DNA from: a virus
Virus record (IMG/VR): IMGVR_UViG_3300044695_001020
Span: 1 to 34,170 of that record
Reading direction: 5' to 3' (one strand)
Length of the DNA stretch: 34,170 nt
The number at the start of each line of letters is the position of its first letter. Within the stretch, counting starts at the first letter, position 1. A program made the position numbers and the translations under genes. Shown here in pieces: positions 24,713 through 31,057 of this stretch. The notes below the pieces were generated by a model. The model did no database searches. It worked only from the letters and a program-made list of their open reading frames with translations, and was not told the DNA's origin.

Positions 24713-24926
24713 CATCTTCCTCCTCGTCTAAATAGCAAAATGGATCATAGCCCTTTAGCATTGCATCGACTGCAACCATGATTGGCCCAGTGATACGAAC
24801 CTTGCCAGCTTCCATCTTGCGAATGGTTGTGCCGCCATTGTCAGGCGATAGGCGGAGAGCGTCCGCCATCTCGTTTACGCTGTAGCCCATGTAGGCTCTA
24901 GCTAGTTTAAGCTTTGCTGGCGTCAT
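24702..24926 (-). CDS. helix-turn-helix DNA-binding protein (74 aa)
   Basis: The protein begins MTPAKLKLARAYMGYSVNEM and continues with ADALRLSPDNGGTTIRKMEA, a Xre-like HTH. The C-terminal end is very acidic (LDEEEDDEC). The start chosen shares ATGA with the stop of the DnaA-like gene; a longer open frame to 25052 is rejected because it runs against that gene. A role as transcription regulator of the leftward arm is likely but not proven. Confidence 0.78.
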   Translation of the reverse strand: MTPAKLKLARAYMGYSVNEMADALRLSPDNGGTTIRKMEAGKVRITGPIMVAVDAMLKGYDPFCYLDEEEDDEC

Positions 24927-25171
24927 GCTTCTTCCATTTCTGCTATCGCTGCCATCTTCTGCAATGAGTGAACAATAGTGCTGTGATCGCGGTTCATAAT
25001 TCTTCCAATCTCTGTGGTTGAATAGCCCTTGCCTCTCATCCACACAACGCATTTCCGCCTTACTTCTACCAATGGCTTCAGTTTGCTTCTGCCTAGAATG
25101 TCTTCAAGTGTGTAACCGTGTAATTCTGCAATGGCATCAATCTCTGCTAAATTCTTTTCCCTTGGCGTCAT
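24923..25171 (-). CDS. DnaA domain IV-like DNA-binding protein
   Basis: This 82-aa protein has the DnaA box-binding helix-turn-helix: RGKGYSTTEIGRIMNRDHST followed by IVHSLQK, close to the DnaA signature RDHSTVIHA. The AAA+ domain of host DnaA is absent. It could bind DnaA boxes and compete with or recruit host DnaA at the phage or host origin. A perfect DnaA box lies at 28738-28746. Ribosome site AAGGA precedes the ATG. Confidence 0.87.
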   Translation of the reverse strand: MTPREKNLAEIDAIAELHGYTLEDILGRSKLKPLVEVRRKCVVWMRGKGYSTTEIGRIMNRDHSTIVHSLQKMAAIAEMEEA

Positions 25172-26580: not shown

Positions 26581-26754
26581 TCATTTTTGCCGTTTTGCGT
26601 GCGCGATGGCTTCAAGCGCCCAGGCTTCCGGCGCTCCTACATAGCGTCCTTTGGCCCAGTGCTTGCGTATGTCATCCATCGAAAGCTTCCCAGCCTGGTA
26701 TCGAATCAGATCGCACATCAAGTTCGTTGCGGCGCTTCCGTCAGTCTTGGTCAC
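26581..26754 (-). CDS. hypothetical protein (57 aa)
   Basis: The GTG start lies in a 4-base GTGA overlap with the upstream P-like gene. The sequence begins MTKTDGSAATNLMCDLIRYQ and continues KLSMDDIRKHWAKGRYVGAP. It is soluble and mixed in charge. It is the last gene before a probable new promoter. No family is recognised. Confidence 0.6.
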   Translation of the reverse strand: MTKTDGSAATNLMCDLIRYQAGKLSMDDIRKHWAKGRYVGAPEAWALEAIAHAKRQK

Positions 26755-27332
26755 CTGACAATATACTCCCCATCCACAATGCGAAGGTAGCCACGATCTT
26801 CAGCAATCCGTAACCAACGCTCTGGCTTGTCTGTCAGATCGACAGGCTCACGGCATCGCAGCGACATAATAAATTCCTCGAACCTTGCCTGCGTATTATT
26901 CAAACAGATTCGAAGCGCCTTGTCCTTTTTTGTTGTTCGCGGCGTGTAGCTATCCAATATCTGTAAGCACTGGCGCGGCGTCGGAAACCAATCAAGTTCC
27001 TTGCAGACGCGCTCAGTCATGTAGCTAAGGGCTTCTTTTGTGTAGCCGCCAAGAATCCTGGCATATACTGCTGTCCGCATCTGTCCGCTTTGCTCGTCGG
27101 TGTTCTTGCTTGGCAGGGTTGCCTCAATAAACTGAAGCTGCTTGGCAAGCTCTTTGGTTTCGACTGGGATGTTCTCGACAGGCATCGCTAACGCAATCGA
27201 TCGTAACTCATCGCATTCTGCTAATGTAAGCTCAGAACGGCTCATCAGTTCGTCCATCCGCGACGTATCGAAGTGCTGCGGCAAAGCCGTTTTGGTTTCC
27301 ACGTTGACCAGTTGTCCGATTTGCTGCGCCAT
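26751..27332 (-). CDS. putative replication partner of the initiator (lambda P position)
   Basis: This 193-aa protein begins at ATG 27332, which has an AAGGA site 8 bases upstream. It overlaps the initiator gene by about 100 bases; shorter starts (27256, 27244) cannot be excluded. It contains ILGGYTKEALSYMTERVCKE and WFPTPRQCLQILDSYTPR. No AAA+ motif is present, so it is not a DnaC-type loader. Position after an O-like gene suggests a helicase-recruiting role, by analogy only. Confidence 0.55.
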   Translation of the reverse strand: MAQQIGQLVNVETKTALPQHFDTSRMDELMSRSELTLAECDELRSIALAMPVENIPVETKELAKQLQFIEATLPSKNTDEQSGQMRTAVYARILGGYTKEALSYMTERVCKELDWFPTPRQCLQILDSYTPRTTKKDKALRICLNNTQARFEEFIMSLRCREPVDLTDKPERWLRIAEDRGYLRIVDGEYIVR

Positions 27333-27915
27333 TCTTGATTTCCTTAATTTCGTAAAGGTCTGTCCAGCCATTCATTGTGCTGCGATCTAAAACATCTGTT
27401 ATGTTTTGGCCTTTAGCCATAAATGCTACCAGCTTGTCGATAGCCTGATTGTATGCGCGATCCGTTAAAGGCTTCTTGCGCTGCTTCCGCATCTCTACCC
27501 AACCGTTCCAGGCATCAGCAGGAATGCAATCTGGAAGCTCCCGTCTTATATACTTGGTGGTTAATTGATGTATCTTTGATGTATTGGGTGACACTGTGTC
27601 AGGGGTGGGGTGACTCTCTGTCAGGGGTGGGGTGACACTGGGACAGGGGTGACACTGTGTCAGGGGTATGTGAATCCAATACCTATTGCCCTTACCAAGC
27701 ACCTCATCGCGCTTGACAAAACCCATAGATTCCAAATCACGAATGATGCGTTGAACCGATCTGCCAGCCATACTGGTCTTAATCGCAAGTCGCTCAATAG
27801 AAGGCCAGCACAAACCTTCATCGTTCGCCCAGTCTGCCAAAGACAGAAGGACAAGCTTTTGCGTGGATGATAGGTCTTCCCTATCCCATACTGCTGTCAT
27901 TAATTTGATACTCAT
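27232..27915 (-). CDS. replication initiator, O-like, with winged-helix domain (HTH_36)
   Basis: The protein of 227 aa has an N-terminal winged helix: AVWDREDLSSTQKLVLLSLA, IERLAIKTSMAGRSVQRIIR and LGKGNRYWIHIPL. A Pro/Thr-rich linker (residues about 84-108) follows, and then a C-terminal domain (PADAWNGWVEMRKQRKKPLT). The linker is encoded by four iterons, so gene and origin coincide as in lambda O. The chosen ATG shares ATGA with a 15-aa leader ORF; a GTG at 28026 would add about 37 residues. The family binds the origin and recruits the helicase. Confidence 0.82.
   Translation of the reverse strand: MSIKLMTAVWDREDLSSTQKLVLLSLADWANDEGLCWPSIERLAIKTSMAGRSVQRIIRDLESMGFVKRDEVLGKGNRYWIHIPLTQCHPCPSVTPPLTESHPTPDTVSPNTSKIHQLTTKYIRRELPDCIPADAWNGWVEMRKQRKKPLTDRAYNQAIDKLVAFMAKGQNITDVLDRSTMNGWTDLYEIKEIKNGAANRTTGQRGNQNGFAAALRYVADGRTDEPF
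27589..27669. repeat. ori: four iterons, probable replication origin
   Basis: Four copies start at 27589, 27611, 27633 and 27650, with the core TGACACTGTGTCA followed by GGGG. Copies 1 and 4 have the perfect 13-base palindrome; copies 2 and 3 are variants (TGACTCTCTGTCA, TGACACTGGGACA). The first two repeat with a 22-base period, and copy 3 is shortened to 17. An AT-rich stretch (27546-27586) abuts them. Tandem palindromic iterons plus AT-rich DNA inside an O-like gene match the lambda ori plan. Confidence 0.75.
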
Positions 27916-27992: not shown

Positions 27993-28035
27993 GAGCGGGT
28001 CGAGTGCCTTTCCCTTTCTCAGGCACTCCCCGCTC
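27993..28035. promoter_or_regulatory. strong stem-loop at the 5' end of the initiator transcript
   Basis: The arms GAGCGGG + GAGTGCCT and AGGCACTC + CCCGCTC pair over 15 bp with a 2-base bulge and an 11-base loop. Neither side is followed by a T run, so it is not an intrinsic terminator. It begins at the predicted transcription start from the promoter 28041-28068, and could be a stabilising 5' hairpin, an operator dyad or a control element for the leader. Confidence 0.6.
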
Positions 28036-28040
28036 GCTCT

Positions 28041-28068
28041 TACATAACTCAAAATCAGCATTTGTAAA
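28041..28068 (-). promoter_or_regulatory. putative promoter for the replication operon
   Basis: On the minus strand TTTACA (preceded by GCT) and TATGTA are separated by 16 bases. Transcription would begin near 28034, in the stem-loop. It resembles the promoters at 26532-26560 and 32424-32452. Confidence 0.4.
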
Positions 28069-28085
28069 AGCATTTTATGGCAGCG

Positions 28086-28115
28086 TTGACAGCCAATGCG
28101 CTGATAGCGTATTCT
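28086..28115 (+). promoter_or_regulatory. putative promoter of a short plus-strand RNA
   Basis: A perfect TTGACA and TATTCT are 18 bases apart on the plus strand, opposite to the genes on both sides. The terminator at 28149-28173 would end an RNA of about 50 bases. Confidence 0.4.
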
Positions 28116-28121
28116 GTGCGG

Positions 28122-28173
28122 ATTGGTACCTCCTTACCGAAACGAACTTGGGTGGCTTCGGTCACCCATTTTT
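28122..28173 (+). ncRNA. candidate small antisense RNA (OOP-like)
   Basis: A promoter-like TTGACA site and a UUCG-capped terminator frame about 50 bases on the plus strand beside the replication initiator. The RNA would contain ACCUCCUUA (28128-28136), the same bases as the 3' tail of 16S rRNA, and would be complementary to the leader of the minus-strand transcript. Lambda OOP RNA has a similar place, next to O and antisense to the leftward or rightward message. No expression evidence exists here. Confidence 0.35.
28149..28173 (+). terminator. intrinsic terminator with UUCG loop
   Basis: TGGGTG-GC-TTCG-GT-CACCCA forms an 8-bp stem (one G-T pair) with a UUCG tetraloop and is followed by five T. 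The T run is on the plus-strand side only, although the flanking genes are on the minus strand. Confidence 0.6.
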
Positions 28174-28516
28174 ATTTGGTCTCACGAAGATCGTGATGTG
28201 GGAATAGCGCCTTAAAGACAGCGCGGCGTAAGGGCCAATCTCTGACAACGACTCCCTTAACATCTTCAGTCACCAGCATACCGTTTTCGACATATTCGAA
28301 ATCAGATTTGTAACCAACGCGCCTGCCATTGGAATGTTTAAGCTGGCGTCCATTAATGACGAACCAGTATTGCGGGTGAATCATCAGGTCACTTATCTCC
28401 CCAGCAGCCTCCAGTGCGTGCAGTTCATTGCAGCGTATAGCCTCCCGTTTGCTGTCATGGGTATGACCAGCATTGCAGTTTGCTTTGACAGCACGATACT
28501 TTCCGAAGCGCCTCAT
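28172..28516 (-). CDS. DUF1064 protein, PD-(D/E)XK nuclease-like
   Basis: This 114-aa protein matches DUF1064: KYRAVKANCNAGHTHDSKRE, then AIRCNELHALEAAGEISDLM, SDFEYVENGMLVTEDVKGVV. The D and E-x-K (EDVKG) residues fit a nuclease-superfamily core seen in phages near replication genes. Role may be Holliday-junction or flap processing, not shown. It overlaps the HTH gene by ATGA and ends just before the antisense RNA candidate. Confidence 0.82.
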   Translation of the reverse strand: MRRFGKYRAVKANCNAGHTHDSKREAIRCNELHALEAAGEISDLMIHPQYWFVINGRQLKHSNGRRVGYKSDFEYVENGMLVTEDVKGVVVRDWPLRRAVFKALFPHHDLRETK

Positions 28517-28719
28517 GCGTTAAGCTTCTGCTCTATTAGGCGATCGAGTGCGTCATTGGCTGCAAGCCATGCGCCTAGCTGTGGTTCAGTGCGACCACTT
28601 TTCCAATTCGACAGCGTGACGCGGGTGATGCCAGCCTCAATCGCTATCTTGCAAGCCCTGATTTTATGCGTCTTGGCATAGCTAAAAAAGTTCGCAATCT
28701 CGTTTTCTACCTGAGTCAT
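28513..28719 (-). CDS. small HTH regulator at the arm divergence
   Basis: This 68-aa protein has an HTH of the Cro/C1 or YdaS type: ACKIAIEAGITRVTLSNWKS and GRTEPQLGAWLAANDALD. It is the first gene of the leftward arm and lies next to the divergent promoters, the usual place for a Cro-like switch protein. It lacks a dimerisation/cleavage domain, so it is not a CI/LexA-type repressor. ATG 28719 is preferred to TTG 28725. Confidence 0.78.
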   Translation of the reverse strand: MTQVENEIANFFSYAKTHKIRACKIAIEAGITRVTLSNWKSGRTEPQLGAWLAANDALDRLIEQKLNA

Positions 28720-28810
28720 ATTCAACTTTCTTTGGGTTGTGGATAAAAAGGGCTTTTAATCTTCTGAAAATTAGTTACAAGGGGTTTGGCAAATAAAAGG
28801 AGATACCGCA
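28720..28810. promoter_or_regulatory. divergent control region with DnaA box and palindrome
   Basis: The 91-base region between the two arms contains TGTGGATAA at 28738-28746, the complement of the perfect DnaA box TTATCCACA. It also contains ATAAAAAGGGCTTTTAAT at 28743-28760, an AAAAG..CTTTT inverted repeat that resembles the one in the 32.43-kb promoter. A rightward TTGGGT-17-TTTAAT pair can be drawn, and a leftward pair TTGTAA-16-TAAAAG is weaker. The AAGGAG ribosome site of the ERF-like gene is at 28796-28802. Confidence 0.5.
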
Positions 28811-29371
28811 ATGCCAGTACATAAAAAGCTTAACGAAGCACGAGTTGCTTTTCATGCATTACCGCTGAAAAAGTCCGGTCATAATACGTTTGCTGGATAT
28901 AAATATTTCGAGCTTTCCGACTTTGTGATTCCAGCCCTTCGCATCTTTAACGATGTCGGATTGTGCGCGGTTATCAGCTTTTCGGAAACCACAGCATCGA
29001 TGCACATTGTCGATGTTGAAGATGGCTCGATGGTTATTATTCACAGCCCAATGGGATCAGCCAATCTTAAAGGCTGTCACGAGATACAGAACATTGGCGC
29101 TTGCGAGACTTACTCCACGCGCTATCTCTGGACAGCAGCCCTTTGCATTGTCGAGCATGATGCTCTGGATGCTACCACAGGCAAGAGCGAACCAGCACCA
29201 CGCGCTAAGTTTATAAGTCAAGACCAGTTCGCTTTTTTAGCGGAATTAGTGTTCCGCACGGAAACTGACCTAGCCTTGCTTTGCAAGCATTACAAAATCG
29301 ACGCACTTAATGAATTGCCGGAAAGCCGCTTTGATGCGGTTAAGGCTGCATTAGAAAAGAAGCTGGCATGA
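28811..29371 (+). CDS. erf: ERF-family single-strand annealing protein
   Basis: This 186-aa protein has the ERF core LNEARVAFHALPLKKSGHNT, FAGYKYFELSDFVIPALRIF and GACETYSTRYLWTAALCIVE. ERF proteins form rings that anneal complementary single strands in phage recombination; P22 Erf circularises the genome after headful packaging. It is first in the rightward operon, next to the exonuclease, a typical recombination pair. Confidence 0.88.
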   Translation: MPVHKKLNEARVAFHALPLKKSGHNTFAGYKYFELSDFVIPALRIFNDVGLCAVISFSETTASMHIVDVEDGSMVIIHSPMGSANLKGCHEIQNIGACETYSTRYLWTAALCIVEHDALDATTGKSEPAPRAKFISQDQFAFLAELVFRTETDLALLCKHYKIDALNELPESRFDAVKAALEKKLA

Positions 29372-29508
29372 GAGAAATTTTAGCAGCCGCAATTGTGGGC
29401 GCGATATATGCTATGTTGTTTCTGCTGTTTCTGGTTGTGGGCGAACTGCGGACACAAACCGACATATGCACACAACGTGCAAACGCAATAGAAGGGGCGA
29501 GCCAATGA
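29368..29508 (+). CDS. small membrane protein (46 aa)
   Basis: The ATG overlaps the ERF stop (ATGA) and the stop overlaps the exonuclease ATG (ATGA). The N-terminal half is a strong membrane helix (IVGAIYAMLFLLFLVVGE), followed by a polar tail TQTDICTQRANAIEGASQ. It would be translated with the recombination genes. Function is unknown. Confidence 0.65.
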   Translation: MREILAAAIVGAIYAMLFLLFLVVGELRTQTDICTQRANAIEGASQ

Positions 29509-30137
29509 GCGACTCAGATATTATCCAACGAAGTCCCGAATGGTATGCAGCACGTTGTGGGAGCCTTGGCGCTTCCCAACTGGCAGACGCCCTAGCCAAG
29601 ACAAAATCAGGCTGGGGAGCGTCACGCGCTAACCTTCGTGCCAAGCTTGTGGTCGAAAGGCTCACAGGCCAGCAGGAGGATGGATTCACCAACGCAGCAA
29701 TGCAATGGGGAGTGGACAAGGAAGAAGAAGCCAGAATCGCCTACAGCTTCATGACAGGCCATGATGTGACTGAGGTGGGGCTATATAAGCATCCTACCAT
29801 TATCGGCACTCACGCCAGCCCTGACGGGCTTGTGGGCGAAGATGGCTGCATTGAGATTAAATGCCCAAACTCTGCCACACACATAGAAGTGCTCAAAACT
29901 AATCAAATCGCGCACAAATATATACTCCAGATGCAATGGCAGATGGCTTGCGCCGATCGTCAATGGTGCGATTTCGTAAGCTTCGATCCACGAATGCCAG
30001 ACCATCTAATGCTTTACATTGCGCGGGTGCAGCGCGACAACGATATGCTGGCGACTTTGGAATCAGAGGTTGCCGAATTTCTGGCAGAAGTTGACAAAGA
30101 CGTAGAAGCATTATCAGAGCTAGGAATCCCATCATGA
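29505..30137 (+). CDS. YqaJ-type recombination exonuclease (lambda Exo-like)
   Basis: This 210-aa protein has the nuclease motifs in order: SPEWYAARCGSLGASQLADA, GTHASPDGLVGEDGCIEIKC with D and E-x-K, and YILQMQWQMACADRQWCDFV. This is the lambda exonuclease/YqaJ fold, which degrades the 5' strand to produce substrates for annealing. ATG 29505 with an AAGGGG site is preferred over the upstream M at 29466. Partner of the ERF protein. Confidence 0.9.
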   Translation: MSDSDIIQRSPEWYAARCGSLGASQLADALAKTKSGWGASRANLRAKLVVERLTGQQEDGFTNAAMQWGVDKEEEARIAYSFMTGHDVTEVGLYKHPTIIGTHASPDGLVGEDGCIEIKCPNSATHIEVLKTNQIAHKYILQMQWQMACADRQWCDFVSFDPRMPDHLMLYIARVQRDNDMLATLESEVAEFLAEVDKDVEALSELGIPS

Positions 30138-30355
30138 CACAGAACGAAAGAGTTTTCGATCACTTGCTTACTGTTGGGCCAATCCGTCCAATGACAGCAT
30201 TGAATGACCTTGGCATCTATCGCCTAGCATCAAGGATTAATGATCTGCGAAAGGCTGGGCATAAAATCAAAACCAAGAAGATTGAGGTGGTCAATCGCTG
30301 GGGAGAATCATCTTACGTTGCTGAGTATAGCCTGGAACTTGAAGATGCTGCCTAA
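30134..30355 (+). CDS. winged-helix DNA-binding protein (HTH_39/PF14090-like)
   Basis: This 73-aa protein fits the small winged helix-turn-helix with RVFDHLLTVGPIRPMTALND and LGIYRLASRINDLRKAGHKI. The wing is in IEVVNRWGESSYVAEYSLE. It overlaps both neighbours. It may regulate the rightward arm, but such domains also occur without a known regulon. Confidence 0.8.
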   Translation: MTQNERVFDHLLTVGPIRPMTALNDLGIYRLASRINDLRKAGHKIKTKKIEVVNRWGESSYVAEYSLELEDAA

Positions 30356-30677
30356 TCGCATTGCCAAGAAGCCAAAGCGTTCATCGCGCTGGCGCTCACA
30401 AGGCCATCTAAACTTTATTCGATCGTTCCATTGCTCGATCAATGGTTGCCAGGATATGCCGATTGAGTGCGCTCATGTGCGTCTTGGCAGCAACACAGGG
30501 ATGGGGCAGAAGCCGGACGATTGGCGAGTTGTGCCATTATGCCGTCAACATCATAATCAGCAGCACACAGTTGGTGAGCAGACGTTCTGGAAAGGCATTG
30601 ACGTAGAGGCTTTGATTGAAGCATTCTGCAAGGCCAGCCCAAAGGCGCGTGAGATTAAAGAGGCTCAAAGCCAATGA
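30345..30677 (+). CDS. HNH-like nuclease, DUF968 type
   Basis: This 110-aa protein, started at ATG 30345, has a basic N-terminus, a CSINGCQ pair and the core AHVRLGSNTGMGQKPDDWRV followed by VPLCRQHHNQQHTVGEQTFW. The layout of C-x4-C, H, C-x2-HH residues is that of DUF968, an HNH-family nuclease of phage recombination regions. It lies next to NinB, as in lambdoid phages. Confidence 0.85.
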   Translation: MLPNRIAKKPKRSSRWRSQGHLNFIRSFHCSINGCQDMPIECAHVRLGSNTGMGQKPDDWRVVPLCRQHHNQQHTVGEQTFWKGIDVEALIEAFCKASPKAREIKEAQSQ

Positions 30678-31057
30678 CGCAAACAGTTTGGCTTCGCGGT
30701 GAATATCAAAGACGATTGGCTCACCAGTTGATTGACAAAGCGCCGCAAGACGCAGTTGTTAAGATAAGCCAAGCCAAGCGATCCGATGACCAGAATGCAA
30801 AGATGTGGGCCATGCTGTCAGATATTAGTCGAGCAGCACCAGAAGAAAGGCGACACATACCAGAAGTTTGGAAGTGTATTTTTATGGCAGCATTGGGGCA
30901 TGAAGTGATGTTCACAATGGGCCTTAACGATCAGCCATTTCCGATAGGGTTCAAAACATCAAAACTAAGCAAGCCCCAGATGTCAGACCTGATTGAGTTT
31001 ATCTATGCGTATGGGGCGCAACACAACGTAAAATGGAGTGAAGAATATGACGGATAA
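30674..31057 (+). CDS. ninB: NinB recombination protein
   Basis: This 127-aa protein contains [20 protein letters not shown] and [20 protein letters not shown], the NinB (Orf of lambda) signature. Lambda Orf replaces RecFOR by helping load recombination proteins on SSB-covered DNA. The nearby SSB and ERF genes fit. It overlaps the GapR gene by 11 bases. Confidence 0.9.

Follow-up and report, generated by a model that had tools for sequence, protein, structure and literature searches.

The window (the whole stretch of 34,170 nucleotides that was analysed) carries a gene for an O-like replication initiator with short palindromic repeats in its coding region. The question raised by this locus is whether the gene contains its own replication origin, as in lambda, and, if so, whether the two initiators arrived at this design separately or by descent. 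As judged from comparison of related sequences, the element is most likely a phage origin for theta replication, laid out as in lambda (probability of roughly 0.9). The features concerned are given in Table 1.

Table 1. Features of the putative origin region in the window.
Feature	Coordinates	Strand	Details
O-like initiator gene	27232-27915	-	227 aa; ATG at 27915, stop at 27232; HTH_36, phrog_678, AlphaFold model
Partner gene	26751-27332	-	193 aa; overlaps initiator gene by 101 nt; candidate P/G39P-like helicase loader
Iteron 1 (first in gene direction)	27650-27662	-	TGACACAGTGTCA, listed also as TGACACTGTGTCA; perfect dyad
Iteron 2	27633-27645	-	TGTCCCAGTGTCA, listed also as TGACACTGGGACA; left half degenerate
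Iteron 3	27611-27623	-	TGACAGAGAGTCA, listed also as TGACTCTCTGTCA; one half-site mismatch
Iteron 4	27589-27601	-	TGACACAGTGTCA, listed also as TGACACTGTGTCA; perfect dyad; adjoins AT-rich stretch
AT-rich stretch	27542-27588	-	Period-11 repeats AATACATCAAA GATACATCAAT TAACCACCAAG; candidate DNA-unwinding element

The initiator was assigned to Pfam family HTH_36 (PF13730; 48.6 bits against a cutoff of 25) and matched phrog_678, 'replication initiation O-like', at 4.8e-35 over residues 32-241 of the longer open reading frame. HTH_36 alone passed: the profile of the lambda O N-domain (Phage_rep_O; PF04492) stayed below its cutoff, as the earlier note had implied in placing the protein in another family than lambda O, and no RepA_N match was obtained in a Pfam scan up to E = 0.1. 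A model was built with AlphaFold from a 40-sequence alignment. It predicts a winged helix for residues 1-84 (pLDDT about 90 or more) with the recognition helix at residues 51-64. The linker that follows, which corresponds to the iteron region, is disordered in the model; the C-terminal domain (about 128-190) is helical, and structure resumes at about residue 133. Foldseek searches with the model gave 4pql and 4pt7 (RepA_N-type) as the best matches (E about 2e-3), with 5kbj also found. The fold in common with the RepA_N initiators is a winged helix (VIA Z score of 9.0), for which generic winged helices score equally high. Sequence searches of the PDB with the initiator and partner proteins returned nothing useful.

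The array spans positions 27589-27662 and consists of four dyad-symmetric 13-bp iterons, two of them perfect and two degenerate (one and two mismatches with respect to TGACANNNTGTCA). Start-to-start spacings are 22/22/17 by coordinate, or 17/22/22 on the gene strand, and since these are not multiples of three the copies lie in different reading frames. The array occupies the linker-coding part of the HTH_36 gene, about 250 nt past the initiator start codon; its coordinates and the boundaries of the model agree with the earlier placement of four iterons between the winged helix and the C-terminal domain. Within the 34 kb record the exact core was found only at the places of the array. Single degenerate matches (two mismatches or fewer) numbered 22 over the window against 16.8 expected, which is near chance; what stands out is therefore the clustering and phasing of the copies in the array, not any site taken singly.

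Relatives were taken from IMG/VR and from named phages of Pseudomonas, Sphingopyxis, Microcystis, Stenotrophomonas, Escherichia and Vibrio. The best four-copy array of 13-mers with spacings of 15-26 nt was searched for in 106 relatives with less than 90% winged-helix identity. It exceeded all 25 synonymous-codon shuffles in 104 of the 106, started a median of 10 nt past the end of the winged helix and had at least one spacing that was not a multiple of three in 79% of cases. The in-gene array is thus a property of the whole family and not of this phage; homologues that lacked the repeats or kept only the amino acids would have spoken against an origin, and the opposite was found. Comparison of the spacing with the encoded linker among close relatives showed the spacing to be constant while the residues differ, for example from LTQCHPCPSVTPP to MHEMHPCIKDMTP. 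The retained arrays, their spacing and the covariation described below argue strongly for the origin within the initiator gene that had been proposed. No close prophage relatives of the window protein were found in the cellular genomes searched, which yielded distant ones. In mEp554-type Escherichia coli O-like genes (L088-L107) the matched length varies by about 100 bp, suggesting a variable number of iterons.

The stretch into which the array leads is conserved across iteron classes; in 85 close relatives its AT content is 67%, that of the gene being 51%. That the iterons abut an AT-rich stretch was therefore correctly noted. In the family profile (91-92 genes), where the gene averages 45% AT, the AT content past the array climbs from about 38% to 56%, peaking 15-45 nt after the array on the C-terminal side. 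Tandem AACCRTCA-like units follow the iterons in most lineages, with a period of 10-12, in all three frames and strand-specifically. This motif was first picked out by visual inspection of the training genes and was then tested on held-out genes. Counted per 100 nt with one mismatch allowed, it occurred in the training set at 1.48 downstream, 0.09 upstream, 0.13 later, 0.43 in synonymous shuffles and 0.10 on the reverse strand; the corresponding values for the held-out genes were 2.41, 0.14, 0.12, 0.86 and 0.03. In the window itself the second repeat has diverged from this motif and recurs every 11 nt (ATACATCAA, ATACATCAA and AACCACCAA). We infer that the second repeat is a conserved melting-site element.

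The start of the partner gene was set at Met 27332 because relatives have stop codons upstream of that Met. The protein was assigned to no sequence family: sequence-profile searches gave no loader match, and comparison with lambda P in hhalign gave no match. Foldseek scores for its predicted structure (pLDDT 83) were weak. When the model was re-aligned to about 1000 chains, DnaB-bound lambda P was the best match (9oa1_Z; Z score 9.1, 2.7 Å over 78 residues) and SPP1 G39P the second (1no1; Z score 7.5, 2.3 Å over 67/67 residues), followed by unrelated AAA+ proteins (Z score 6.5). The resemblance to lambda P and G39P resides in the predicted core (residues 55-133). Among the matches in the viral library are proteins that carry the names G39P, replisome organizer and helicase loader. 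The partner is probably a P/G39P-like helicase loader, which points to an identity for a gene without annotated function; the earlier statement that it has no recognised loader motif holds for the sequence, the predicted fold being closest to these two loaders. In relatives L008, L015, L021, L029, L050 and L052 different small genes replace one another at the partner position; some of the genes found there have an F(F/M)P(T/S) motif, and they are apparently matched to the C-terminal tail of the initiator.

Further features were recorded around the gene. An 82-aa gene at 24923-25171 (minus strand) has a match (1.8e-10) to Bac_DnaA_C, the domain with which DnaA binds DNA at its C-terminus, and its product is possibly a phage-borne reader of DnaA boxes. 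A perfect DnaA box, TTATCCACA, is present at 28738-28746 in the divergent intergenic region. A recombination module at 28172-31057 comprises a Holliday-junction-resolvase-like DUF1064 protein, an Erf annealing protein, a YqaJ exonuclease and NinB. GC skew was considered as an origin marker and set aside: its sign changes near 28-29 kb (28000-29000), where gene direction also flips, so that it is not evidence.

Two other readings of the repeats were weighed. The linker is Pro-rich in every relative, and a Pro/His/Thr-rich linker could in principle dictate repeats in the DNA, which would then be a feature of the protein only. This was rejected as a full explanation, and we regard it as almost certainly wrong: the spacings of 17 and 22 shift the copies between frames, the arrays exceed the synonymous shuffles, and the spacing stays constant through changes of the encoded residues. 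The other reading takes the repeats to be operators, bound by the initiator or another regulator for autoregulation or control of the early operon, with replication starting elsewhere. It would have to account for sites that lie in a fixed phase within the coding region, well past the start codon, for their contact with an AT-rich stretch that has conserved repeats of its own, which is the lambda layout, and for a neighbouring gene with a loader-like predicted fold. Dyads of this size are typical of operators, and the perfect DnaA box and the DnaA-domain-IV-like gene near the divergent promoter region make another start conceivable; we nevertheless consider an operator array very unlikely and retain the reading as an origin of the lambda plan.

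Whether this plan was reached by convergence or marks a distant relative of lambda O had been left as alternatives in the earlier note. Lambda O (1.7e-35), the P22-type O of phage N7 (1.3e-81) and the window initiator all match phrog_678, in overlapping winged-helix columns. The N7 protein, which like lambda O matches PF04492, combines a lambda-type N-domain with a C-terminal domain like that of the window initiator and is thus a natural intermediate. Independent emergence of the HTH_36 and lambda O in-gene origins would fit the separate Pfam families (HTH_36 and Phage_rep_O) and the weak result of direct comparison in hhalign of HTH_36 with lambda O from small alignments (E = 0.01, probability 4%), in which, however, the register of helices 2-3 fits. 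With phrog_678 in common at about 1e-35, a remote shared ancestor is likelier than convergence, and we hold separate emergence to be unlikely; the comparisons tie the HTH_36 group to lambda O, and of the two alternatives the distant relative is kept.

For the analysis of specificity, dyad consensus sequences were derived without protein data from 224 unique genes; 167 gave a clear consensus and 57 no clear half-site. Residue numbers refer to the window protein, and the positions of a half-site are numbered outwards from the centre of the dyad. The centre was picked by palindromy and a preference for G at position 5, and position 5 is therefore not evidence. Within the 167-gene set, Arg56 was accompanied by C3 and A2 in 29/29 genes, whereas genes without it had A at position 3 in 137/138 cases and C3 in 0/138. 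Arg or Lys55 occurred with G6 (17/18), Gln55 with C or T at position 6 (103/104), Ile or Met55 with T6 (45/45), Asp51 with A4 (20/20), Glu51 with C4 (57/61), Lys56 with C2 (12/13) and Leu or Ile56 with T2 (15/15). The normalized mutual information between residue 56 and position 3 is 0.96, the next residue reaching 0.42. Residue 52 is Arg in 159/167 genes and is a plausible contact for the invariant G5. In the model, the covarying residues fall at the N-terminal end of the recognition helix. By lineage, the pairing of Arg56 with C3 was seen in 9/9 window-type, 4/4 Sphingomonas-type and 15/15 Vibrio/enteric genes, with no C3 among genes lacking Arg56. Tree counts agree (7 and 7 changes). Seven Arg56 changes were placed on the best tree; three independent ones lie on supported branches, and the supported independent pairs were 3/3 concordant, a number too small for the phylogenetic test alone to be significant.

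The rules were fixed before held-out prophages (from bacterial genomes) and further viral contigs were fetched. These supplied 47 new winged helices less than 90% identical to the training set, 38 of which had clear half-sites. C3 was present in six and absent from three genes with Arg56 and was present in one and absent from 28 of the others (Fisher p = 2e-4); for Arg or Lys55 and G6 the same counts were 7, 3, 0 and 28 (p = 1e-5), and Glu51 occurred with C4 in 19/23. Two of the 3/9 held-out Arg56 genes that broke the rule look mis-centred. One exception is L412, in which Arg56 is accompanied by GCAG in the left half-site, the right half being asymmetric. The residue-base rules generalize, with exceptions in divergent members, and the matching rule appears to be partly readable from sequence alone.

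Three iteron types occur in close relatives, TGACA-nnn-TGTCA (that of the window), TGAAC-nnn-GTTCA and TGCAT/C-nnn-A/GTGCA, all with the identical 17/22/22 spacing and matching recognition-helix variants, and the flanking CCCAATACATCAAAGATACATCAATTAACC stretch is near-constant across them. The DNA identity of L029 and L021 is 98% in the 600 bp upstream of the gene and 99% in the part that encodes residues 1-40, falls to 48% in the recognition-helix region and 52% in the iterons, and is 88-96% onwards. The same drop at helix and iterons was seen for L050/L055 and L008/L015, with the AT stretch and C-terminal region conserved. The C-terminal tail of the initiator and the partner gene vary independently of iteron type. 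As read from these alignments, genomes that are nearly identical elsewhere have exchanged helix and iterons together, as a single cassette, which the location of site and reader in one gene permits; each exchange would yield a new origin type, probably compatible with the former one. L061 (4355-5059) and L062 keep this C-terminal domain but combine it with GGAACAGT-type repeats and with an HTH_36 winged helix that looks unrelated. This is the specificity swap on a larger scale, possibly with a different residue-base rule.

In the mechanism that we propose, each of the four dyad iterons would be bound by a dimer of the O-like initiator, contact being made by the N-terminal portion of its recognition helix (51-64), with Arg52 pairing with G5, residue 51 setting position 4, residue 56 setting positions 3 and 2 and residue 55 setting position 6. 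The four dimers would form an O-some and open the adjacent AT-rich stretch, where the strand-specific repeats of period 10-12 may be held as single strand, and the C-terminal domain would recruit the adjacent P/G39P-like loader to deliver the host DnaB helicase. On balance we favour a combined account in which HTH_36/O-like initiators follow a largely readable code, types are switched by a helix-plus-iteron cassette of about 200 bp, probably in evasion of competition or origin-targeted attack, and the second repeat marks the melting site. As every such gene encodes a DNA-binding helix together with the site that it reads, public sequence amounts to a large natural experiment on winged-helix specificity. 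Origins and iteron types become predictable in many phages and prophages, and the reason why lambdoid phages keep type-specific origins becomes testable.

The closest known system is lambda O with ori-lambda (together with the P22-type and Stx-phage O proteins; PMC7466680, PMC6022878), in which the origin also lies within the initiator gene. The likeness to lambda ori that had been claimed was borne out: both have four dyad iterons between the domains and an AT-rich stretch on the C-terminal side, with the initiators in one PHROG family; the gene next to the window initiator encodes a probable loader where lambda has P, and the lambda iterons (39034, 39054, 39078 and 39101) are spaced 20/24/23, close to the 17/22/22 of the window. 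Unlike in lambda, the N-domain is HTH_36 and not Phage_rep_O, the iterons are shorter (13 bp) with different half-sites, and the partner has a sequence that does not identify it as P; AACCRTCA-type repeats adjoin the iterons in most lineages of the window family, whereas no cluster of them was found next to the lambda O iterons. SPP1 G39P and lambda P resemble the predicted fold of the partner core, their sequence similarity to it not being detectable. In the Vibrio PLE modules the RepA N-domain varies in step with the origin, and experiments showed the two to be swapped as a unit (PMC8263062), but that origin is noncoding and outside repA, and PLE RepA is in the RepA_N family (PMC8263062). 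The RepA_N initiator Rep of pSK41 has a winged-helix N-domain, four Rep boxes in central rep, a dispensable linker and a C-terminal recruiting domain (PMC5703833); this layout is like that of the window initiator, and N-domains of this kind are the best Foldseek matches of its model. It differs in its boxes and in a C-terminal domain that binds DnaG primase (PMC5703833), and the window protein is without a RepA_N Pfam match. In the chimeric Rep of pPR9/pUSA03, as summarized in PMC5703833 (citing Perez-Roth 2010), an HTH_36 (PF13730) N-domain with its origin, about 500 bp, was swapped into a pSK41-type initiator, and the plasmid is described there as compatible with pSK41. That account concerns a staphylococcal plasmid and one exchange event and gives no residue-to-base rule; it is a direct precedent for cassette exchange and for an in-gene origin with HTH_36. 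No such rule for HTH_36/O-like initiators was found in the open-access papers searched. In-gene origins are already known from lambda O, RepA_N initiators and pPR9; what appears to be new is the code linking residues to bases, together with the second repeat.
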